Positions 12,461 to 40,589 of a stretch of DNA of 58,604 nt are shown here, piece after piece. A program made the translations under genes and the position numbers. Source of the stretch: Pseudomonadota bacterium. Its GTDB lineage: Bacteria; Pseudomonadota; Alphaproteobacteria; Rickettsiales; RGZB01. Numbering within the stretch: the stretch's first letter is position 1; every line of letters begins with the position of its first letter. The DNA is taken from positions 1 through 58,604 of the forward strand of contig RGZB01000009.1 in NCBI GenBank assembly GCA_010031735.1, given 5' to 3'. The notes below the pieces were generated by a model, which saw nothing but the letters and a program-made list of their open reading frames with translations, ran no database searches and was not told the DNA's origin.

Positions 12461-12585
12461 AATTAGTTAAAATACATATTAAATCGTCATTAATTCATAT
12501 TTAACAGTAGCTTACCGAAAACCCACTTGTACAGGCAACGGCGACATGGTACGCTCGGGGTATGAAATATGCATAGGAGCAGGGT

Positions 12586-12846
12586 ATGAATACGAAGAAG
12601 AAATCCACGAAAAAGAATAAAAAACACAAGCGCATCAGCCGTGCACATCTGGCATTCCGTCTCGTGGTGGTGATGCTGATCGCAGGTATTTTCTTTATGC
12701 CGGGCTCACCGGTGGGTCCGAGCGAGGCTGTGGCAGCCGGCAGTCCGGAAATCCCGGATATCCTGCTTCCGGTGCTTATCGTTGCGACGGCTACGTTGTT
12801 CTACACCGTGCGCAAACATATCCTTGCCAAAGTGACGATTCAGTAA
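12586..12846 (+). CDS. Small protein: signal peptide plus PEIPD-TM-basic tail (candidate exosortase substrate)
   Basis: RBS-like aggagcagggt upstream of ATG; MNTKKKSTKKNKKHKR...VVVMLIAGIFFMPG...AVAAGSPEIPDILLPVLIVATATLFYTVRKHILAKVTIQ. Confidence 0.6.
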   Translation: MNTKKKSTKKNKKHKRISRAHLAFRLVVVMLIAGIFFMPGSPVGPSEAVAAGSPEIPDILLPVLIVATATLFYTVRKHILAKVTIQ

Positions 12847-12853
12847 TTCTTCT

Positions 12854-13840
12854 CTAACGCTTACGGCGGTTTTTCTTTCGCGCCCTCACGCTAGTGACGT
12901 TCGGTTGCTTCCGTGTGGGCGTTTTTTTATGTACGGGTTCACGAACGAACGTCTTTGCGGCAAGCACGTACATACCGGTCATGAAAATGCCAAAGGCGGC
13001 CAGGTAAATCACCCATCCGATATTCGAGTGGAATAAATCGATCAGCCGTGCGCTCGCATCGGTGTAGCCCACATGCCGGATGAAAAGCATATATGAAAAG
13101 ATACGCAGCACATTCATCAGGAACATATAGACGAAACCGGTGGCGTAGAGTTCGGTGAGGCTCCAACGGGAGAAGATGCGCCAGTCGATCAGCAAGATGA
13201 GTGCGAGTAGATAGTAGAAAAGAAAGATGCCTTCCAGGCCGCTGCATTCCGGCAGGATCTTCATCGTGAATTCCGGCAGTTTCACAAACACCCCGGGCTT
13301 ATCGGTGGTCGCACTCCAGCTCGTGGTGTGGATACCGCCGGCGCGGAGGAGGGTGCGGATACCGACCGCCGTCGCGTTCGATAACGCCTCCCATAAGAGT
13401 GACTTTGCAAAGAAATAGATCTTGTCGAGAGAGGCAGCAAAGAGTGCCACCGCCGTAAGCCGGCAGTGTTCTGATGCGCGGAGTAAAGCGATACGCGGAG
13501 GGATAAAAGCGAAGGTGCAAAGAACCGCAATAAAAAGCGAGATCGCGATGTAGGCATAGCGGCCATGGTGCATGAAGAAATACGGGGCGAGGACCAATAA
13601 GGCCACTGCCAGGAAAATAAAATGCGGTTGGAGTGCGAGTGAAAAGGGTTTCTGCCGTTCGATCGCTTGCACCCATAATACATGCATGAAGGTGATCGAG
13701 AGCATGCGCATAGGCCCAAGGAACGAGAGACTACCCGTACTTTGCAGGCCAACGACGAGAGCGGCAATCACGCCGGGTGCTGCAATCAGGGCTAGTCGTG
13801 AGAATCCCTTCGCTTCCGAAACATACTTCATGTGATGCAT
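12854..13840 (-). CDS. Exosortase/archaeosortase-family transmembrane transpeptidase-like protein
   Basis: Multi-TM protein with ECSGLEGIFLF (Cys), MNVLRIFSY (Arg) and LFHSNIGWVIY (His), in the order and spacing of the exosortase Cys-Arg-His motifs. Confidence 0.75.
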   Translation of the reverse strand: MHHMKYVSEAKGFSRLALIAAPGVIAALVVGLQSTGSLSFLGPMRMLSITFMHVLWVQAIERQKPFSLALQPHFIFLAVALLVLAPYFFMHHGRYAYIAISLFIAVLCTFAFIPPRIALLRASEHCRLTAVALFAASLDKIYFFAKSLLWEALSNATAVGIRTLLRAGGIHTTSWSATTDKPGVFVKLPEFTMKILPECSGLEGIFLFYYLLALILLIDWRIFSRWSLTELYATGFVYMFLMNVLRIFSYMLFIRHVGYTDASARLIDLFHSNIGWVIYLAAFGIFMTGMYVLAAKTFVREPVHKKTPTRKQPNVTSVRARKKNRRKR

Positions 13841-20120: not shown

Positions 20121-21275
20121 ATGCCAAACGTTACAAAACGCCTCGTTGATAGTCTTGAACCACAAGAGAAAGACTATGTTATTTGGGATGATAAAATCAA
20201 AGGATTTGGAATTAAAGTCACTCCCAAAGGCAGAAAAGTTTATATCTTCAAATATCGCAATAAAGCTAACGTGCAGCATAAGCCTGCAATAGGGAAGCAC
20301 GGTAATATTACTTGTGAGCAGGCACGGGAAATAGCACAAAAATGGTCATTCTCAATAAGCCAGGACAATGACCCAATGGTAGAGCGACATAAAGCCAAAG
20401 AATCTCCCAAAATGCAGGAAATATGTGATCGCTTCCTTAAGGAGCATTCGGAAGTAAAAAAGAAACCAACCAGTATTGCAATGGATAATATACTGATTGA
20501 AAAGTTCATTAAACCGAAAATCGGTAATCTTAAAGTTGCTGTTGTAACCAAAAATGATATTGCGGAATTACATAGCAGTATGAAAGATACTCCTATACAA
20601 GCTAATCGGACAGTAGGCCTACTCTCAAAGATATTTAATCTTGCAGAAACATGGGGATTTCGACCAGAATTTTCAAACCCTACCCGTGGCATTCAGAAAT
20701 ACCCAGAAAAGAGCCGGGAGCGCTTCCTTGATACCAAGGAGGTTAATACATTGCTAGATGTATTGGCAAAGGCAGAAAAAAATGAAAGTGAATCTAAGCA
20801 TGTCATTGCTCTATTTAAGCTACTATTATTGACAGGTGCACGCTTACGGGAAATCAAGGATGCAAAATGGGAATGGGTGGATATTAAAAATAAGAAATTA
20901 ATTTTGCCTGATAGCAAAACCGGAAAGCGAGTAATTCAATTATCGGATTCAGCAATAAAGGTACTTAAGAAAATCCCTATAAAGAAAAATAATCCATATC
21001 TCATTGTAGGTGAAGTAGAGGGGCAGCATCTTATTAATGCACGAAAACCTTGGATACGCATATGTAAGGCGGCAAAATTGGAAAATGTAAGAATCCATGA
21101 TTTACGACACACCTATGCAGCTATGTGTATAGAATCGGGGCTCTCACTCTACAGTACAGGAAAGTTATTAGGACATTCACGCGCACGTACTACCGACCGT
21201 TATGCACATCTAGCAGAAGATCCGCTGCGGCTGGCGGCAGAACAAGTAGGAAAGAAATTTAAGGGGATAAAGTGA
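20121..21275 (+). CDS. Tyrosine-type integrase, P4-like (DUF4102-type N-terminus)
   Basis: N-terminus DYVIWDDKIKGFGIKVTPKGRKVYIFKYR; catalytic-region motifs LTGARLREIKDAKWEWVD, HDLRHTYAAMCIESG, GHSRARTTDRYAHL. Confidence 0.92.
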   Translation: MPNVTKRLVDSLEPQEKDYVIWDDKIKGFGIKVTPKGRKVYIFKYRNKANVQHKPAIGKHGNITCEQAREIAQKWSFSISQDNDPMVERHKAKESPKMQEICDRFLKEHSEVKKKPTSIAMDNILIEKFIKPKIGNLKVAVVTKNDIAELHSSMKDTPIQANRTVGLLSKIFNLAETWGFRPEFSNPTRGIQKYPEKSRERFLDTKEVNTLLDVLAKAEKNESESKHVIALFKLLLLTGARLREIKDAKWEWVDIKNKKLILPDSKTGKRVIQLSDSAIKVLKKIPIKKNNPYLIVGEVEGQHLINARKPWIRICKAAKLENVRIHDLRHTYAAMCIESGLSLYSTGKLLGHSRARTTDRYAHLAEDPLRLAAEQVGKKFKGIK

Positions 21276-22120
21276 CAGAGAAATTTTCACCTGTTTTATT
21301 GGAAGTCGTGAATGAAGGCCTAGAATTATACAAAAAAGGGTTTTCTCCATTTGATACCTATAAAGGCATAAGACACAAAATCTTTCAGGTTTTTGAAAAG
21401 GATTTGGGTTCAAAGAAATCGACAGTAATTGCCGATTATGAGAAAGATTTTAACATTATAAAAGACGCAAAATTTATCCATGCCTCTTACTTAGATAATT
21501 TATTATTGTCTCTAAAACTAAAGCGTCATGAACTTCTAACAAAAGAAAAGGTAAATCTCGATATTGTAGATCAATATCTCCGGCCCAAAAAAGGGGAACA
21601 GCAAAATAGTTTCATAGCTATTGTAAAAGCCATTTTAATAAAGAGGCTTCACGATTATGGCTCCAGTTATAATTCCGCTTTTAGACTAGCAACAGACATG
21701 TTGGGAGGAAGTCAGAGAGATGCCGCTGAGCACTATTATCAACTTTCAAAGTTGAATATGTGGAAGTGGGTAATGGAAGAACTCTCACTTATTGATGCCA
21801 TGATTATTATGGTTATTGATAAAGCCAACAAGCCTTGGCGTATAGCCAAAGAAGATTTGGAAAAAGAAAATAGAAATGCCAAAAAAGCTATTCAAGGCGC
21901 ATATACAGCCTATGAGAAGTTTGTCAGCACTACAGGAAAGTATTTCTTTCCAAAAGTTTCAGAGCATATTAAAAAATATGATGATCCTATTATAAAACTT
22001 ATCATTACCTCGGAAGAACTGCCAAAATATAAGTCAGATACTCTTTCTTTTAATGAGATTGAAACAATAAAGATAATGGGCGTGTATTTTCATAAATATC
22101 TTTTGCCCATCAAAATGTAA
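21272..22120 (+). CDS. Hypothetical protein overlapping the integrase stop (GTGA)
   Basis: 282-aa ORF with a GTG start inside the integrase stop; no family recognised. Confidence 0.6.
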   Translation: MTEKFSPVLLEVVNEGLELYKKGFSPFDTYKGIRHKIFQVFEKDLGSKKSTVIADYEKDFNIIKDAKFIHASYLDNLLLSLKLKRHELLTKEKVNLDIVDQYLRPKKGEQQNSFIAIVKAILIKRLHDYGSSYNSAFRLATDMLGGSQRDAAEHYYQLSKLNMWKWVMEELSLIDAMIIMVIDKANKPWRIAKEDLEKENRNAKKAIQGAYTAYEKFVSTTGKYFFPKVSEHIKKYDDPIIKLIITSEELPKYKSDTLSFNEIETIKIMGVYFHKYLLPIKM

Positions 22121-22262
22121 TTTTTACCCTACGCAAACCTCCTGTGCGTAACGTCCAGCCCTTCTGCCTATCGTTATTTCTTTTTTAAGCTGTGCAATCA
22201 TCTCCTTGTACCTATTCAGAGTGTTCTGAGTAGACACTTAAATCTAACAAGGAGACTTATAT

Positions 22263-22469
22263 ATGAAAGAATATCTAACACCTACGGAACTTGCAGAACT
22301 TTGGGGCATCTCGGAGAATACGCTTAGGAAATGGCGATGGGAAGGTAAAGGCCCGCGTTATGTAAAGCTGGGTGAGCGCGTAGTATATCGCCGCAACGAT
22401 ATAGACGCTTATGCCTCTGCTAATATCTATACCTCCACCTCTGATAATGGAGCTGGATATGTCCAATAA
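22263..22469 (+). CDS. AlpA/excisionase-type HTH protein
   Basis: EYLTPTELAELWGISENTLRKWRWEGKGPRYVKLGERVVYRRNDIDAYASA; RBS caaggag. Confidence 0.85.
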   Translation: MKEYLTPTELAELWGISENTLRKWRWEGKGPRYVKLGERVVYRRNDIDAYASANIYTSTSDNGAGYVQ

Positions 22470-22755
22470 GAAACTTGATTTTCATTCAATCAATAATGCT
22501 GCCGTTGCCAACATCTACATTGTGATCGCCCACCTCGGATTACAAGGAAGAACGCAGGGAAATTGGTTTACCGCGCTTAATCCAAAGCGAGACGATAAAA
22601 AACCTGGTTCCTTCGTCATAAACTTAAGGACAGGAAAATGGAAAGATTATGCGCTAGCAGATGCTTACGGTGACTTGATAGCTTTAGTCGCCTACATAAA
22701 GGACTATTCGCAGAAACACGCCGCAGAAGAATTAGCAAGAATTCTGGGAGTATAA
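22459..22755 (+). CDS. Small primase-N-terminus-like protein (CHC2-type fold remnant without visible zinc ligands)
   Basis: WFTALNPKRDDKKPGSFVINLRTGKWKDYALADAYGDLIALVAYIKDYSQKHAAEELARILG resembles the N-terminal domain of phage/plasmid primases; overlaps the AlpA gene end. Confidence 0.6.
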   Translation: MSNKKLDFHSINNAAVANIYIVIAHLGLQGRTQGNWFTALNPKRDDKKPGSFVINLRTGKWKDYALADAYGDLIALVAYIKDYSQKHAAEELARILGV

Positions 22756-22756
22756 T

Positions 22757-24571
22757 ATGGAAAAAACTTCTGTAATAGCGCAACAGCCAATGGTGGGCTG
22801 CACTCTGGAAGAGTATTCTGAGTGTAAAAAGATACCCGCAGAGTTCCTGAAATCTATCCATATATCTGATTCACAAAGACAAGGTGTTGCAAAAGTCAAA
22901 ATGCAATATCTCGCAATAGATAAAACGGTGGTTGCCACGCGGGAAAGAATAAGTCTAAACGGAGAGGATAGATTTAGATGGCAAAAAGGCGACAAACCGT
23001 GCTTGTACGGATTATGGAGACTACCTCAATATACCAGTGATTATATAATCCTGTGTGAAGGAGAAAGTGACTGCCAAACGCTTTGGTATAATGAACTTCC
23101 GGCTATAGGCATACCAGGCGCTACTAATTGGAATGAAGCGCGGGACAACCAGAACCTTGAAAGGTTTAATACGTTATATGTCATTTACGAGCAGGATTCA
23201 GGTGCAGAAGCATTAGTAAAGTGCCTAGAGAGGTCATCACTAAAAAATAAGATTAAACTGGTTTCGTTGGGCGGTCACAAAGACCCTAGCGGCCTTTACA
23301 TATCTTCACCAGAAAACTTCCTACGAACTTTTGAGCAAGCATTAACAGAATCCGTACCTTTTAGGGAGTTTCTAGCCGGAAAGATAAAGAAAGAGGCAGA
23401 AGCAGCCTGGAAGCTATGTGAAAAGCTGGCAACAGCACCTAACATTCTTGATTACTTTGAGATGGAACTGGAAAATCTGGATTTTGTAGGGCAGGTAAAA
23501 GAAGCAAAAATAATCTATCTCGCCCTTATTAGCCGCTTTCTTGACAGGCCAATATCTATTGCGGTGAAAGGGCAAAGTAGCGGTGGCAAATCCTTTCTGG
23601 TTGAGACGGTTTTATCTTTCTTCACGAAAACTGCCTTCTACTCCCTAACTACCATGTCAGAGAAAGCCATGATTTACAGCCAGGAGAATTTTAGCCATAG
23701 ATTTATAGTTATCTATGAGGCCAGCGGCTTAAAAAGCGAAATGGCATCGTATCTCATACGATCATTATTGAGTGAAGGAAAAATCGAATATGAGTTTGTA
23801 GAAAGAACCGTAAAAGGCACTTTCCCTAAAAAGATTTGTAAGGAAGGGCCTACAGGACTGATTGTTACCACAACAGAAATTAAGCTACATCCAGAAAATG
23901 AAACGCGAATGTTCTCTCTTACCATCAATGATACGCCGGAACAGACTAAAAATATCTTTAATGCCATAGCCAGCACTGCGAAAGGCATCAAGAAACAGTG
24001 TAATAGAGAAGCGTGGCAGGCATTGCAGCAATGGTTAGAAACTTGCGAGAATAAGGTTATTGTTCCTTATGCTGATAAGATTGCCGAATTGATGCCTGCG
24101 GCTGCAATCCGACTAAGAAGGGATATAAAGTTATTATTTAACCTTGTGAAAGCCAGTGCAATCCTACATCAGAAAAACAGACAGATTAACAGTAACGGTG
24201 AAATTGAAGCCTCTATTGAAGACTATAAAATCGTCCATGAATTAATATCGGACATTATAGCAGAGCAAATAGAAGCCACGGTATCTAAAACAGTCATCGA
24301 AACAACAGATACAGTTAAAAGAGTGCTTCATACTAAAGGTGAAGAGGAAAGATACGCTACGCTTGCCGAGGTATCAGAAGAACTAAAACTTGATAAGAGT
24401 ACCGTTTCCCGCCGTTTGAAAGTTGCTACGGAAGGCGGCTACATCGAAAGGATAGATAATAATAAGCGTGGTAGTATTGCAAAATATGTTTTAGGCAATG
24501 CAATACCGAAAAGCGAAGCAATCCTGCCTACTCCCGAACAGGTGTTGCAGTGTTGTACGAATAATAAATAA
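22757..24571 (+). CDS. Toprim-ATPase replication protein (primase-helicase-like) with C-terminal wHTH
   Basis: Toprim-like YIILCEGESDCQTLWYNELPAIGIPGATNW and VIYEQDSGAEA; Walker A GQSSGGKSFLV; C-terminal YATLAEVSEELKLDKSTVSRRLKVATEGGYIERI. Confidence 0.75.
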   Translation: MEKTSVIAQQPMVGCTLEEYSECKKIPAEFLKSIHISDSQRQGVAKVKMQYLAIDKTVVATRERISLNGEDRFRWQKGDKPCLYGLWRLPQYTSDYIILCEGESDCQTLWYNELPAIGIPGATNWNEARDNQNLERFNTLYVIYEQDSGAEALVKCLERSSLKNKIKLVSLGGHKDPSGLYISSPENFLRTFEQALTESVPFREFLAGKIKKEAEAAWKLCEKLATAPNILDYFEMELENLDFVGQVKEAKIIYLALISRFLDRPISIAVKGQSSGGKSFLVETVLSFFTKTAFYSLTTMSEKAMIYSQENFSHRFIVIYEASGLKSEMASYLIRSLLSEGKIEYEFVERTVKGTFPKKICKEGPTGLIVTTTEIKLHPENETRMFSLTINDTPEQTKNIFNAIASTAKGIKKQCNREAWQALQQWLETCENKVIVPYADKIAELMPAAAIRLRRDIKLLFNLVKASAILHQKNRQINSNGEIEASIEDYKIVHELISDIIAEQIEATVSKTVIETTDTVKRVLHTKGEEERYATLAEVSEELKLDKSTVSRRLKVATEGGYIERIDNNKRGSIAKYVLGNAIPKSEAILPTPEQVLQCCTNNK

Positions 24572-24700
24572 TATCATTCTGAATTTATTTTTGATGTATC
24601 GAACTATCAGGATATGCCAGGAAATCTGCGGATATTCCTAATCTCTAATTATTGCCATAACATTATTTTTTGTTACTCTTTAAGCAAAGGAGATAACAAT

Positions 24701-25021
24701 ATGAATCAAAAAATAACAGGATTAGCTGCATTAACATCGCTTTTTCCAGCAGCACTTCTGCTTGCAATTCCTCTTCTATTAATGGCAGACGAAAAGAAAG
24801 AAGAAAAGGAACCGGAGAATAAGCCAAAGAGTATGGTGTCAAAAATTCCTGTACCTACAGCACTACCCTCCAAGCCTATTATTCATACCACCCTGCGGCG
24901 TGGTGACTGCTTTCTATGTCCTGATACAGGCATTATGCTACAAGTAAGAGCAAAAGGAAGAAGACGGAAAAGTAAGGTTCCCCCTCTATCGTCTATAAGG
25001 AATGTACTATCTTCCGTGTAA
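24701..25021 (+). CDS. Small hypothetical membrane-associated protein
   Basis: RBS aaaggag upstream of ATG 24701; one hydrophobic segment then a charged tail; 3' end overlaps the convergent gene. Confidence 0.5.
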   Translation: MNQKITGLAALTSLFPAALLLAIPLLLMADEKKEEKEPENKPKSMVSKIPVPTALPSKPIIHTTLRRGDCFLCPDTGIMLQVRAKGRRRKSKVPPLSSIRNVLSSV

Positions 25022-25910
25022 GGTTATCTTGAATTGGCTCTACCAGAACAAACTCAGTCATTATCTTTTCCAGGGCTTTATGATTGTCTAAGGATGAAAT
25101 AATCTTATCAATAGGCTCTATATGTAAAATGCCATAACGAGAGTAATAAATTCCAATTCTTTTAATCTCGATATCTTTAATTAATTTTGGCTTTTTCCTA
25201 TATTTAGATTTTTCTAATATTTCTATTAATTCCATTTCTTTTGAGAAGATATTTGGCTTATTTATTCCGCCAATTTTAGAAAGATAATAATAACCAATTA
25301 ATTGCTTCCAAAAATAACTATTACTTCTTCCATTTTTTACCGTCTTTATTTCTATTAGCGTATCGTCGATAATTAGATCACAATCTGCACACCGTACGGC
25401 TGTTTCCAGAGTATTAAAATCGGGGTTTAAAATAATATACTTATTAGGCTGGAATTTCTTTATATCTACTATTGATATTAGTTTTTCTAATTCTTCTACC
25501 ACTCCGCGCGGAACGCGACCTAAATGTTTAACCACACCACAACGAGTGAACGCTTCTAATTGCGCCAGGGTATAACAGGCCCTGAATAGTTTTTTATCAA
25601 ATTTGCCTTCCTTGAAATATCTTTTGATTTCCTTCTCTGCATCTTCAAAAGCATAACGGTAATGACCGCCAAGATATTGCCCTATTTGCAAATGCCATTT
25701 TGTTTTTGAATGTTTGGAATATTCCCTAAATAAATAGCATCGAAGCAATAAATCAAAAGCGATACCTATTAATGCAAAATGAACTGTAGTAGAGGGAACC
25801 AGGGCAACTTGATTTACAATGGGATTTTTAGGAATGCTAATTAGTTGGGCAATAGTTCTGGATACCTCTTTCTGTTTTATAAATTGCGTAAGAGTAGGTC
25901 TTATCAGCAT
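24993..25910 (-). CDS. Probable PD-(D/E)XK nuclease (RecB-like core)
   Basis: CDLIIDDTLIEIKTVKNGRSNSYFWKQLIGYYYLS matches D...ExK followed by QxxxYY. Confidence 0.65.
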   Translation of the reverse strand: MLIRPTLTQFIKQKEVSRTIAQLISIPKNPIVNQVALVPSTTVHFALIGIAFDLLLRCYLFREYSKHSKTKWHLQIGQYLGGHYRYAFEDAEKEIKRYFKEGKFDKKLFRACYTLAQLEAFTRCGVVKHLGRVPRGVVEELEKLISIVDIKKFQPNKYIILNPDFNTLETAVRCADCDLIIDDTLIEIKTVKNGRSNSYFWKQLIGYYYLSKIGGINKPNIFSKEMELIEILEKSKYRKKPKLIKDIEIKRIGIYYSRYGILHIEPIDKIISSLDNHKALEKIMTEFVLVEPIQDNLTRKIVHSL

Positions 25911-25931
25911 GGAAACCCCAATCCAATAAAG

Positions 25932-25953
25932 GGCAAGGTTATTAAACCTTGCC
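25932..25953. terminator. 9-bp stem hairpin GGCAAGGTT-ATTA-AACCTTGCC (possible terminator or operator)
   Basis: Perfect 9-bp stem with a 4-nt loop; read on the minus strand it is followed by CTTTATT. Confidence 0.4.
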
Positions 25954-25978
25954 TAAAAAGTGATGATTTTTTGGATTT

Positions 25979-26118
25979 GGCTACCTAATGGTAGCCGGGA
26001 GTTTACAAGTCGTCGCTAGACGACCGCGGCAATCTTTGGCCGCGAGGCTTGGACATAATTGCCGCCTCCCGGCCATAAAGGACGGAAAGCGGCATCAAAT
26101 AACGGTTGATGCCAACCG
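25979..26118. ncRNA. Candidate structured RNA / regulatory module (strand undetermined)
   Basis: Stems: GGCTACC/GGTAGCC 25979-25996; GCCGGGAG 25994-26001 with CTCCCGGC 26066-26073; GTCGTC/GACGAC 26009-26024; GCGGCAAT 26026-26033 with ATTGCCGC 26058-26065; GGCATCAA 26091-26098 with TTGATGCC 26106-26113; alternative CGGTTG/CAACCG 26103-26118. Confidence 0.45.
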
Positions 26119-26264
26119 CTAGCGAACGAGGTTGTAAAGCCCCAGAACAGAACATCTGTCCCGCAGAAAATATATGGGATTGAGTAAAAGAGCGCAAGGT
26201 AAACTAAAAAACTAGGAATTGCCCGATATTTACACTAGCTTATGGCCAGTTTGGTGGAGAAAAG

Positions 26265-29200
26265 ATGGAAAATCTAAATTTTCCTACATTTGATATAGTT
26301 GAAGCCCAAAAACGCGGAAATTTATTAATTTTCTGCGGAGCAGGAGTATCTGCTAAAGCAGGGCTACCTAGTTTCAAGAAATTGGTTTCAGAACTTATCA
26401 TAAGGCTGACTGGCTTTAACGAAATTGATAAGAATCCTAAAGATATAAGAAGTTATATTGATAAGAACCATCGGCATATTCACACCCTATTCTTTGAAAG
26501 AAAATATGATAGAGCGCTGTCGGCCTTAGAAGAGCATTTATCTTCAAAAGAGGTACTAGGAATCCTTAATCAAAAAAGAGAATCTGCAAGAAAAAAGATT
26601 GTTGATTGTATTATTGAACTTTTTAATGAACCAACGGCAAAGAATCTCGAGCGTCACAAGCAAATACTCCGAATTGGACATCATAACAATAACTTAAGAA
26701 TCTTAACCACAAATTTTGATAACTTATTTGAATGTGCACTAGACGAGTTAAAAAGAAACGATACAGAATTTAAAAATATAGACTGTAATTTTTATCATGC
26801 TCCTCTGTTACCCGCAGCAAGACACGACCGCTGGTCAGGTATAATTAAGCTACACGGGACATTAAAGGAAGACCTAACAAGAGGAGAAATAGTAGTAACA
26901 GCGGGGGATTTTGGAAGAGCATATCTTTCAGAGCGCTGGGCAGCAAAACTTGTTGTAGATTTATTTAAGTATTTCCATGTTTTGTTTATTGGATACAGTT
27001 TAGATGATCCAATTTTAAGATATATCATAGATGCTTATTCAGTTGATAAGTACCATGACAAGCAGTTGAAACATGCTCACATACTACTGCCTAACAGCGA
27101 TTCTGAGGAGTTAGAATTTAAATTCTATGGTAGCCAAATTACCGTACACACGTACGATCCATCAGATGAATTTCACTCTGGTTTTGATACTACAATAAAT
27201 TATTGGGTAGATAGCTATATCGGTGGCGCTACAAAACAGAAAAGTAGAATTATATCTTTAGCAAAAAGTTTCTCTGAGGGTGAGCCTCTAGAAGATGAAA
27301 TAAAACGACTAATTCCTGATCTGCAAACTTCTTTAGAAGCAGTTAAGTATTTTTGCCAATCAAATCCAAGTGTTAAGTGGATTCCCTATCTGGACGAAGC
27401 AAATCTTCTAGTTGCTTACAAGGGTCAGCCTGTCGAAAGGTTGGTATATGATAGAGAAGAAGAAAAGCACACGCCATTCATTATTCCTTTAGTTAGCACT
27501 CGCTGGCAGTATGCTTCTACTGCTTCTTCTGAAGGAGGTCTTCATTTTTCTTCATGGTTAGCAAAGAATATAGATAAAATAGAGGTGATAGATTGGATTT
27601 TACAGAAGGGAGGTCATCTGCACCCCCAACTCCGGTCAGTAATTGAGCATGAATTATGGGTGGGGGGAGATAATAGACAAGGAAGAGAAACTCCCTATAG
27701 GGAACTTCTTAATGTTTTATTGTCACTTGATCATTCTACAGAGGAATTTGATTCTGTTAGCAATTACAGATTTAAAGATGATTTAGAAAAAGCAATCCCT
27801 TTAGAATCTAGTCTTTCCGATAATTTCTTAAAACAAAGAATACTCAAAAGCTTTAGACCTATTATTGATGTTAAAAGAAAAAGTCTTAGTAGTGCGCTAG
27901 AGTTTCGTAAAAAACTCTATGAAAATCTTCCAGAAAAAAGCGATCTTAGTACTGTAATTCGGGGCTGTTACAGAGATTTGTTTGAGATTTATTCAACATC
28001 CATTTATGAGCATGAACAAAAAGAGATACTACAAATAATAAAAAGATCGCAGGTGCTATTGGCTGACCTAGCAGAAGAGGCATACGAACTATTAAAACAA
28101 ACCTTTGATATACTAAGTATTATAGAAACAAGTCATTATACTTACATAGATCGTGTATCCATCGCAGAGGATAGTGAAAATCAAAACTTCGCCTCATGGA
28201 ATGTTCTAGTGGATTTCGTCAGGGATAGCTTAGACGCATTGTTACTACGTAATCCTGATAAAGCCCTTCTACAAATATCCTTAATGCTCGAAAGAGGAAC
28301 TTGTGGATGTGAAAATCCTACAGAAAAAGAAGAAAAATGTTATCCAATACTCGCACGCATAGCACTTTATGCTTTAGCTAAGGCTCCTATTTCTGCGGAT
28401 AAGAAAATCAGAATAGCTTGGCCGTATCAAAAATGCTGGCTTTTTGAATTGGAGACGCAAAAAGAATCTTCAGATTTCCTTAAAGCAATATGGAATGAGC
28501 TTCATAGCATCTGGCAAATTCGCCTATCTAGAGCGATTATTGCGGGCTCACCAAGACTTAGAAAAAAGAAAGATGAGGAAGGCTTACGGATTAAGGAACT
28601 TAGCATTTTGAATAGAATTAAATGGGTTAAGGAGATAGCAAGTAATAATTTGCCAGACTTTATAGAAGAAAAATACAAAGCCCTATCAGTGGTTTTTCCA
28701 GATCATATTAATGATCAATTAGTTGATAGGCCCATTATGTGGAGAAGTGGTTTTGGACCGCACTATAGTCAAACTGAATCTTATGATCGCTTTAAAGAAT
28801 TTACATTAGAGGAACATATCTCTTTCCTCAAATCTAATGATAACAATAAAACAGAAAACAGATTTGATGATAGATACAATAATGCAAGGGAATTATGGCA
28901 AGAGTTCTCCCAGCGCAACCCAGAAGAAGCTGTTAGAGTACTTAAACTCTTAGCAGAGAACAAGAACTACAGCCCTATCGCTTGGGAAGGTGCATTAAGA
29001 GGATTTGAGGAACCATATTTAGGTGAAAAAGAATTCCAACCAACAAATAACAAAAAAAGAAAAGCAAACGACTGGAAAAATATTTTATCTTTGTTGCTGC
29101 AAGTGCCAGCGGATTCATTGCTCACATTTATAGAGTATGCTTCTGGCGCTCTTTACGGAGTTACTAAAGCTGACGAATTAATAGATTTTGAGTCAGATTT

Positions 29201-30251
29201 ATTTATAAATCTTTGGCAAAGAATCATGCCGATTGCAAAATCTCAAAAAAGATATGAACACGGTGATTTGTTACATCAAGCGATAAATCATCCCTTCGGT
29301 AAGCTTACAGAAGCCCTCTTTAGTTTTATGTGGGCAAAAAGTCAGGGCAAGAGAAGCGATATTTCTCGCTCGTTTACTCCTTATTTTGATGCACTGCTCG
29401 AGGAAGGAGAATCGGTTATTTATGCTAAAACAATCTTAGCTGAATATCTTTACTATTCTTATTTATTCTTACCTGAATGGACAGAGACAAATATCATTCC
29501 TTTATTTGATTGGGAAAATGAGACTTTAGCCAATCAGTATTGGTTAGCTTTCATGTATCGTCCTGCACTATCTAAAGAATTAACTGAAAAAGTAAAAGGC
29601 TTTCTTATTCAATCCTTTCAGTCAAACAGACTGGCTTTCTTTGAGCGCTATGGGGCGAGGAGGAATCTAGTTCATATGGCAACTAATTTAATGCTTGATG
29701 GTACCTTTAACGAAGGAGAAGCTAAGATTATTCTCTCAGCCTTAAATCCATCAGATAAAGCTGATATAATTTTTTATCTTGAAGGCAGTATTAACTCTGA
29801 AACCGATATAGAGAAGAAAAATGCCAAATGGGAAAAGTATAGAGATTGGTTATTAAAATACGCCCCTTTATATCCATTCAGTACACCAGAACCCTCATCG
29901 GCTCTAACAGGCTTACTGCTTGTTTTAGATACTAATATTGTAAATAGAGACTGGCCTTCCATAAAAAGGATTATTGGACCTATATCCAATGATTTGTGGC
30001 TTACATACAGAAAACTCACTGCCAAAGGTAGAAAAGAGGATAATAACCAAGCCGCCCCTCATCCACTGTGGAATAATCCTGATCTTATTGTGGATATAAT
30101 AAACCATATAACCCCCGATGAGATTAGCCGATCTTCTATGGCAGTAAATAATCTTGGGGAAATTTTAACCAGTATAGAATCGGAATTAAGCAATTATGCC
30201 AAAGACAGTAGATATATTAGACTCAAAAATATTCATACCAAACTCGAATAG
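26265..30251 (+). CDS. SIR2-domain protein, 1328 aa, putative NADase-type anti-phage effector
   Basis: LLIFCGAGVSAKAGLPSFKKLV, LTTNFDNLFE, IKLHGTLKED, LFIGYSLDDPILRYII match the SIR2 Rossmann core; followed by ~1000 aa of unassigned mostly helical sequence. Confidence 0.85.
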   Translation: MENLNFPTFDIVEAQKRGNLLIFCGAGVSAKAGLPSFKKLVSELIIRLTGFNEIDKNPKDIRSYIDKNHRHIHTLFFERKYDRALSALEEHLSSKEVLGILNQKRESARKKIVDCIIELFNEPTAKNLERHKQILRIGHHNNNLRILTTNFDNLFECALDELKRNDTEFKNIDCNFYHAPLLPAARHDRWSGIIKLHGTLKEDLTRGEIVVTAGDFGRAYLSERWAAKLVVDLFKYFHVLFIGYSLDDPILRYIIDAYSVDKYHDKQLKHAHILLPNSDSEELEFKFYGSQITVHTYDPSDEFHSGFDTTINYWVDSYIGGATKQKSRIISLAKSFSEGEPLEDEIKRLIPDLQTSLEAVKYFCQSNPSVKWIPYLDEANLLVAYKGQPVERLVYDREEEKHTPFIIPLVSTRWQYASTASSEGGLHFSSWLAKNIDKIEVIDWILQKGGHLHPQLRSVIEHELWVGGDNRQGRETPYRELLNVLLSLDHSTEEFDSVSNYRFKDDLEKAIPLESSLSDNFLKQRILKSFRPIIDVKRKSLSSALEFRKKLYENLPEKSDLSTVIRGCYRDLFEIYSTSIYEHEQKEILQIIKRSQVLLADLAEEAYELLKQTFDILSIIETSHYTYIDRVSIAEDSENQNFASWNVLVDFVRDSLDALLLRNPDKALLQISLMLERGTCGCENPTEKEEKCYPILARIALYALAKAPISADKKIRIAWPYQKCWLFELETQKESSDFLKAIWNELHSIWQIRLSRAIIAGSPRLRKKKDEEGLRIKELSILNRIKWVKEIASNNLPDFIEEKYKALSVVFPDHINDQLVDRPIMWRSGFGPHYSQTESYDRFKEFTLEEHISFLKSNDNNKTENRFDDRYNNARELWQEFSQRNPEEAVRVLKLLAENKNYSPIAWEGALRGFEEPYLGEKEFQPTNNKKRKANDWKNILSLLLQVPADSLLTFIEYASGALYGVTKADELIDFESDLFINLWQRIMPIAKSQKRYEHGDLLHQAINHPFGKLTEALFSFMWAKSQGKRSDISRSFTPYFDALLEEGESVIYAKTILAEYLYYSYLFLPEWTETNIIPLFDWENETLANQYWLAFMYRPALSKELTEKVKGFLIQSFQSNRLAFFERYGARRNLVHMATNLMLDGTFNEGEAKIILSALNPSDKADIIFYLEGSINSETDIEKKNAKWEKYRDWLLKYAPLYPFSTPEPSSALTGLLLVLDTNIVNRDWPSIKRIIGPISNDLWLTYRKLTAKGRKEDNNQAAPHPLWNNPDLIVDIINHITPDEISRSSMAVNNLGEILTSIESELSNYAKDSRYIRLKNIHTKLE

Positions 30252-30257
30252 GAAATC

Positions 30258-30277
30258 TGGTACCTATGTGGTACCTA
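30258..30277. repeat. Right terminal double motif TGGTACCTATGTGGTACCTA
   Basis: 19/20 identical to 20085-20104. Confidence 0.75.
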
Positions 30278-30325
30278 CAAGATACTATAAGTTTGCAGGG
30301 ATTTAATCTAACCTATTGAAAAATA

Positions 30326-30401
<76 letters not shown>

Positions 30402-39381: not shown

Positions 39382-40589
39382 CGTGCGACCTCTTTCTTCG
39401 CTTTGGCGGCGACAGGATTCTCTTTCATCAGATCGACGAAACGCTCGAAGAGATAATGCGTATCCTGCGGGCCGGGGGAGGCTTCCGGGTGGCCTTGCAC
39501 CGAGAAGACCGGGCTGTTCTTCACGCGGATGCCTTGCACCGTTTGGTCGAAGAGCGAGATGTGTGTGACGATGACATCCGAAGGCAGACCCTTCGGCGAT
39601 ATCGCGAAGCCGTGGTTCTGGCTGGTGATCTCCACCTTGCCGGTCTCTAAATCTTTCACCGGATGGTTGGCACCGTGGTGGCCTTGTTTCATCTTCTCGG
39701 TTTTGCAGCCGAGTGCGATACCGAGCATCTGATGTCCTAAGCAGATGCCCAGCATCGGGATATTGGAATCGAGTAAATCTTTGATCACCGGGATGGAGTA
39801 TTTACCCGTCGCGGCCGGATCGCCCGGACCGTTCGATAAGAAGACGCCGTCCGGATTGTACGCGAGGATGTCTTTCGCGCTGGTGTTCGCAGGCACGACC
39901 GTGATGCGGCAACCGGCACTCGCCAGGCAGCGCAGGATATTCAGTTTTACGCCATAATCGATAGCGACGACATGGAACGGTGCTTTGGTCTCTTTCACGA
40001 AACCTTTGCCGAGTGCCCAGCGTTTTTCGTTCCACTCATACGGCGCTTTGGTGCTGACTTTCGCCGCAAGCTCCATGCCCACCATGGAAGGATGCGCTTT
40101 TAATTGTTTCTTCACCGCTTCGATATCGATCGCGTTTTTGGAATCGAACACGATGGCGGCATTCTGTGCACCATGGTCGCGGATGTGAGCGGTAAGCGCG
40201 CGCGTATCGACGCCGCTGATGCCGGTGAGGTTATTCTTGATGAGCCAGTCGTTCAAATGCTGACTGCTCCTGAAGTTCGAAGGGTTCGTGATCGGTGCAC
40301 GGATGACCAAGCCGTTCGCATACACTTGCTTCGCCTCGGTATCCTCCACGTTGGTGCCGACGTTGCCGATGTGCGGGAAGGTGAAGGTGACGATCTGGCC
40401 GGCGTACGACGGGTCGGTCAGGATCTCCTGGTAGCCGGTGATGGCGGTGTTGAAACAGATCTCTGCGAGCGTGGTGCCTTCTTTACCAATACCAAAACCG
40501 GAAAACGTCTTGCCATCTGCAAGTATCAAAACCGCATTTTTCTTGGCCGCAAGGGGCCGTGCAGGCGTGCCGGAGTGTGGTTCAGCCAT
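39378..40589 (-). CDS. carA: Carbamoyl-phosphate synthase small subunit
   Basis: ILADGKTFSGFGIGKEGTTLAEICFNTAITGYQEILTDPSYAGQIV; GATase PMLGICLGHQMLG. Confidence 0.96.
   Translation of the reverse strand: MAEPHSGTPARPLAAKKNAVLILADGKTFSGFGIGKEGTTLAEICFNTAITGYQEILTDPSYAGQIVTFTFPHIGNVGTNVEDTEAKQVYANGLVIRAPITNPSNFRSSQHLNDWLIKNNLTGISGVDTRALTAHIRDHGAQNAAIVFDSKNAIDIEAVKKQLKAHPSMVGMELAAKVSTKAPYEWNEKRWALGKGFVKETKAPFHVVAIDYGVKLNILRCLASAGCRITVVPANTSAKDILAYNPDGVFLSNGPGDPAATGKYSIPVIKDLLDSNIPMLGICLGHQMLGIALGCKTEKMKQGHHGANHPVKDLETGKVEITSQNHGFAISPKGLPSDVIVTHISLFDQTVQGIRVKNSPVFSVQGHPEASPGPQDTHYLFERFVDLMKENPVAAKAKKEVAR

Follow-up and report, generated by a model that had tools for sequence, protein, structure and literature searches.

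A probable two-gene sorting system that pairs an exosortase with a very small substrate

We analysed a 58,604-nucleotide stretch of DNA (the window) from a member of the Rickettsiales (contig RGZB01000009.1 of assembly GCA_010031735.1), in which an exosortase gene faces a very short ORF. We consider it probable that the two genes form a dedicated protein-sorting system, composed of an exosortase and a single, very small substrate. This reading had been proposed in an initial annotation of the DNA, and it is supported here by a search for similar sorting tails, by comparison with named exosortase families and by the recurrence of the pairing, with cleavage of the small protein inferred. That the same two genes are paired in distant bacteria suggests a genuine sorting system of one enzyme and one target, as yet without a name. 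The chemistry of bacterial exosortases is hard to study because these enzymes mostly serve many, largely unrelated targets. If the system is dedicated, a compact enzyme with a single target of about 60–140 residues, sometimes apparently part of the same polypeptide, would offer a minimal model in which to locate the cleavage site and identify the acceptor. The range of exosortase products would then also include mini-proteins and peptides.

An exosortase convergent with a small candidate substrate

The exosortase gene (12854..13840, minus strand) encodes a multi-helix membrane protein of 328 aa that matches the signature models TIGR04178 (34.1 bits; cut-off 23) and PF09721 (Exosortase_EpsH; 26.2 bits; cut-off 25.7). 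With both models above cut-off, the protein is by sequence a member of the exosortase/archaeosortase superfamily. The ECSGLEG, NVLRI and FHSNIGW motifs initially read from this ORF are present exactly at 12854-13840 (minus strand). The assigned catalytic-triad residues Cys199 (13244-13246), Arg246 (13103-13105) and His271 (13028-13030), all on the minus strand, are unchanged across alignments of five and of nine enzymes. An AlphaFold2 model of the protein is helical and of moderate confidence (mean pLDDT 76.8, pTM 0.72), and no match was found in the PDB either by sequence or by the fold of this model. The comparison with named Xrt families that had been recommended at the outset gave no Xrt/Art model near its cut-off, and the relatives that we scanned reached no named family cut-off either. 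By these models the enzyme is a member of an unnamed exosortase group.

The stop codons of the exosortase gene and of the candidate substrate ORF (12586..12846, plus strand; 86 aa) lie 7 bp apart in convergent orientation, exactly as first described. An AGGAG ribosome-binding site can be read at 12575..12579 (plus strand), 6 nt 5' of the ATG of the small ORF. The GC contents at codon positions 1/2/3 are 0.53/0.39/0.63 in the small ORF and 0.53/0.41/0.65 in the exosortase gene, and neighbouring genes are alike. No family library gave an above-cut-off match to the small protein, and the PEP-CTERM model PF07589 does not match it. By sequence and hydropathy, however, the protein combines a signal peptide-like N-terminal part with a tripartite motif-helix-basic tail. 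The tail that had been pointed out, SPEIPD-ILLPVLIVATATLFYTV-RKHILAK, was recovered with the motif-TM-basic layout as a tail profile match, GSPEIPD-ILLPVLIVATATLFYTV-RKHILAK, at 12739..12831 (plus strand). We dropped 'PEF-CTERM' as a label for this tail, as no such model matched. At the other end, the Lys-rich, signal peptide-like N-terminus with a hydrophobic segment and AVAA stands as described; the signal peptide is called from the AXA pattern alone.

Pfam-matched neighbours within ~6 kb of the pair are FliR, glutamine amidotransferase, asparaginase-like, ferritin-like, Crp/Fnr, HTH, OsmC and Ysc84 genes. No exopolysaccharide gene is among them, in line with the earlier remark that no polysaccharide operon is adjacent. 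Scans of the pair for promoters and terminators performed no better than on shuffled sequence. Elsewhere in the window, positions 20121-30401 have a GC content of ~0.36-0.41 against 0.5-0.56 and are bounded by a tyrosine integrase gene and a tRNA-Ala. This segment encodes a 1328-aa SIR2 protein matching Dsr1 defence models (E 1.9e-103) and probably represents a defence island that has integrated here.

A single exosortase and a single strong tail match found in the genome

We searched the organism's own genome assembly (2.38 Mb in 251 contigs) for further enzymes and targets. A protein search and a TIGR04178 search each found one exosortase. As the initial annotation had advised, we also looked for PEIPD-TM-basic tails elsewhere in the genome, using a profile of nine tails that includes the window's own. 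There was one strong match, which was the window's tail (E 1.8e-13), and the next match had an E of 0.6. Because the profile contains the window's tail, a second target with a similar tail should have shown up, whereas a dissimilar one would not. The genome has one strong tail match, but other targets could have escaped notice, since divergent tails lie beyond the profile and the assembly is broken into many contigs. PF07589 detected no PEP-CTERM protein above cut-off across the genome. An exosortase of a known family with many targets had been named beforehand as the outcome that would speak against a dedicated system; we found instead an enzyme below every named family cut-off, as the sole exosortase detected, and a single strong tail match.

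The pairing recurs in relatives

Direct protein searches of 59 genomes of the same order returned no other match to the enzyme at E <= 0.001 and weak matches only to the small ORF, none of them a convincing homologue. Because these searches yielded little, we turned to profiles. The TIGR04178 cut-off was exceeded in 9 of 378 genomes of the order. Four short enzymes from three of these genomes (G266, G269 and two in G275) align with the window exosortase at 27-30% identity and keep the invariant Cys, Arg and His. Adjacent to each is one small ORF with a hydrophobic N-terminus and a PE[LM][PS]-helix-basic tail. Among these alphaproteobacterial loci only the enzyme and the small protein recur, apart from a glycosyltransferase-like gene at the two loci of G275, a genome in which each of the two enzymes has its own tail type. 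When 395 genomes were sampled from the class, a short-type match was present in the window's own genome only, with three other matches of ~540 aa; we treated the long exosortases (~520-580 aa) of this order and class as a separate group and did not pursue them with the short ones.

At all four Bdellovibrionota-type loci (L052-L055) the exosortase gene is immediately followed by one for a small protein with a signal peptide, a Cys-rich stretch and a VPELPSWFGPFFLAT tail with a basic end. In the order to which one of these loci belongs, 13 of 16 genomes gave a match, and when 293 genomes were sampled across the phylum, the only 11 that matched all came from that same order. A small lipoprotein-like gene lies divergently, just upstream of the exosortase, on the minus strand at each locus (L052:180-458, L053:4020-4280, L054:798-1070 and L055:1089-1376). 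We found no relevant literature on exosortases with Bdellovibrio or with Cys-rich mini-proteins.

More distant loci, from the order in which 13 of 16 genomes matched, show the pairing in several arrangements. Convergent partners of 125 aa occur at L093 and L094, where FPKN/VPKN replaces PE, and others of 105 aa and 79 aa at L098 and at L103, the latter with an enzyme truncated by the contig end. Divergent partners are found at L105 (130 aa) and in genome G772 at L109, whose 58-aa protein with the motif APEIPTN is the shortest partner found. At L108 and L110, partners of 138 aa and 135 aa lie a few kb from the enzyme. No partner was seen at L111 (within 9.4 kb) or at L112 and L118, both near contig ends. 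Where an intact enzyme has a separate partner, 14 of the 16 partners carry the PE motif. Clustering of neighbouring genes in search of a shared third component showed only a glycosyltransferase-like gene recurring across phyla, at three loci. Individual loci have other neighbours: a sulfatase-family gene, which might modify an anchor, lies just upstream of a small PELPGG protein at L117 (6493-7581) and L113 (2563-3744), and in G772 a GDSL-like hydrolase gene (L109:3163-4272) overlaps with the last part of the exosortase gene.

In genome G773, enzyme and substrate apparently form one chain. Two diverged ORFs of 497 and 504 aa on separate contigs (L096:1462-2955, plus strand; L101:919-2433, minus strand) have an exosortase domain above the TIGR04178 cut-off and a Cys-rich, basic-tailed C-terminal domain; the exosortase domain is followed by a further helix, a Cys-rich segment, a hydrophobic stretch and basic residues at the very end. 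Their motif is PQFLEGW or PQFPEGW, not PE[ILMV][PS].

Our searches turned up nothing close to the window's pair, whose relatives stand at 26-33% identity, and the conservation is therefore of type only. At that level the small ORF is conserved with the enzyme, being adjacent in 4/4 alphaproteobacterial and 4/4 Bdellovibrionota-type relatives and encoded nearby in most of the more distant ones; a small ORF not conserved with the enzyme had been the second outcome named beforehand as speaking against a dedicated system.

Background of the detector and co-variation

We assessed how often such partners are called using a strict detector (50-150 aa, a basic then hydrophobic N-terminus, and a PE motif with helix and basic end). 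Of its 11 matches across the 297 kb of loci examined, 10 lay at exosortases; 82.7 kb of unrelated loci gave none. Because it misses the pairs of L052-L055 and those with VPKN/FPKN, the detector is conservative. Tail HMMs built without the window copy gave the window's tail 16.7 bits when 8 tails were used and 21.2 bits with 14, corresponding to E values of 0.011 and 0.0006 in a search space set notionally at 40,000 ORFs; since few ORFs adjoin the enzyme, the values there are far smaller. Leave-one-out models recovered all five tails from the alphaproteobacterial loci, with scores of 9-33 bits, and failed to reach divergent tails.

Distances between tails track those between enzymes: r was 0.90 over 16 pairs, 0.59 over the 12 that are non-redundant (a value reached in none of 10,000 permutations) and 0.73 over the five alphaproteobacterial pairs (p 0.03), although this correlation is confounded by phylogeny. 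In both tail and enzyme, one pair of G275 (G275a), and not the other (G275b), clusters with that of G266.

Alternative explanations

The observed pairing could also arise if the small protein were a subunit with two helices, accessory or regulatory to an exosortase whose targets lie elsewhere in the genome. Consistent with such a role, the small protein is always encoded near the enzyme, and in three cases (the window, G772 and G269) its two hydrophobic segments are barely separated. However, the segment between the signal peptide and the tail varies from none through Thr-rich to one with 4-13 Cys while the PE-helix-basic layout is kept, as for sorting signals, and the tail profile and PF07589 turned up no further tail in the own genome. 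We therefore regard a subunit as unlikely, if the most credible of the alternatives. Less credible still is ordinary PEP-CTERM sorting, with further targets missed in the fragmented assembly or lying beyond the reach of the profile. The 251 contigs and the failure of the tail model on divergent tails leave room for such targets, and PEP-CTERM genomes mostly hold several of them, with a median of eight per genome (PMC1569441). Against this, a given exosortase acts on targets with a common tail, and no paralogous tail scored with a profile that contains the window's; in relatives, too, there is one neighbouring target per enzyme.

Finally, the 86-aa ORF could have arisen by chance or be the remnant of a gene, as might be suspected from the lack of above-cut-off family library matches and of a convincing homologue in the 59 same-order genomes. 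The ribosome site, the codon composition, the score of the left-out tail, the detector background and the recurrent adjacency all argue against this explanation, which we consider very improbable. A dedicated pair of exosortase and small substrate thus remains our preferred reading.

Proposed mechanism and product

By analogy with the models for PEP-CTERM sorting (PMC1569441) and for archaeosortase (PMC7157517), we infer a scheme of export, cleavage and transfer for the dedicated pair. The small protein would be exported by means of its signal peptide-like N-terminus, and its C-terminal helix would keep it in the inner membrane, the PE motif lying on the outer side. Cys199 of the exosortase, helped by Arg246 and His271, would then attack near this motif. 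The helix and basic end would be removed and the new C-terminus handed to an acceptor, which could be a lipid, a sugar-lipid or water.

The initial annotation had emphasised that almost nothing lies between signal peptide and sorting motif, so that the processed product would be a very short peptide. This is the case in the window, where about 2-5 residues separate the candidate AXA sites from the PE motif, but most relatives have ~40-75, often Cys-rich. Measured between AXA sites that are pattern matches, not predictions of a trained program, and the PE motif, the span is 7-11 residues in G772, 6-12 in G269, 14-25 in G275b, 31 in G769b and mostly ~40-76 in the Cys-rich partners. Because most relatives carry a Cys-rich mini-domain, the near-empty product of the window is the extreme of a series. 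In relatives the product would be a mini-protein of ~40-75 residues that is in most cases rich in Cys. For the small protein of the window, the distance of ~12-15 residues from the end of the hydrophobic core to the AXA sites is long, and the N-terminal helix may therefore escape cleavage. The window product would be a short peptide, unless the uncut N-terminal helix serves as an anchor. There is an outside chance that the exosortase makes a ribosomal lipopeptide, with both ends of the precursor removed and a few residues joined to a lipid or glycan; if so, a protein-sorting enzyme would be making a signal or envelope component.

Comparison with known systems

The closest known system is the exosortase/PEP-CTERM (EpsH) system (PMC1569441), likewise a multi-helix enzyme with invariant Cys, Arg and His acting on targets that have an N-terminal signal peptide and a C-terminal motif-helix-basic tail. 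By analogy, the window pair and EpsH/PEP-CTERM likely use the same chemistry. This type of pair differs in its motif, PE[ILMV][PS] instead of PEP, in the single adjacent target of each enzyme where PEP-CTERM genomes have a median of eight, in the lack of an adjacent exopolysaccharide locus and in the size of its targets (58-138 aa). The named Xrt/Art families (ArtC, XrtW, XrtD, XrtO, XrtX, XrtK and XrtH) show weak similarity in the catalytic region, but the window enzyme falls far below their cut-offs (ArtC, 26.7 against 100; XrtW, 20.5 against 425). In the model proposed for ArtA of Haloferax, the active-site Cys takes up the new C-terminus, which then passes to a lipid amine (PMC7157517); unlike the window enzyme, ArtA is archaeal and has several large targets.

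A sorting enzyme with a single target in the genome has been termed a 'dedicated system' (PMC3237569). In the case of rhombosortase with a single GlyGly-CTERM target (PMC3237569), the enzyme adjoins its sole target in the genome, much as the exosortase here adjoins its candidate target, although rhombosortase is an unrelated rhomboid protease that uses a GlyGly motif, and mini-protein targets and apparent enzyme-target fusions are features of the present pairs. Dedicated sorting has already been described (PMC3237569), and it is the mini-protein targets, together with the apparent fusion, that set this probable dedicated system apart.
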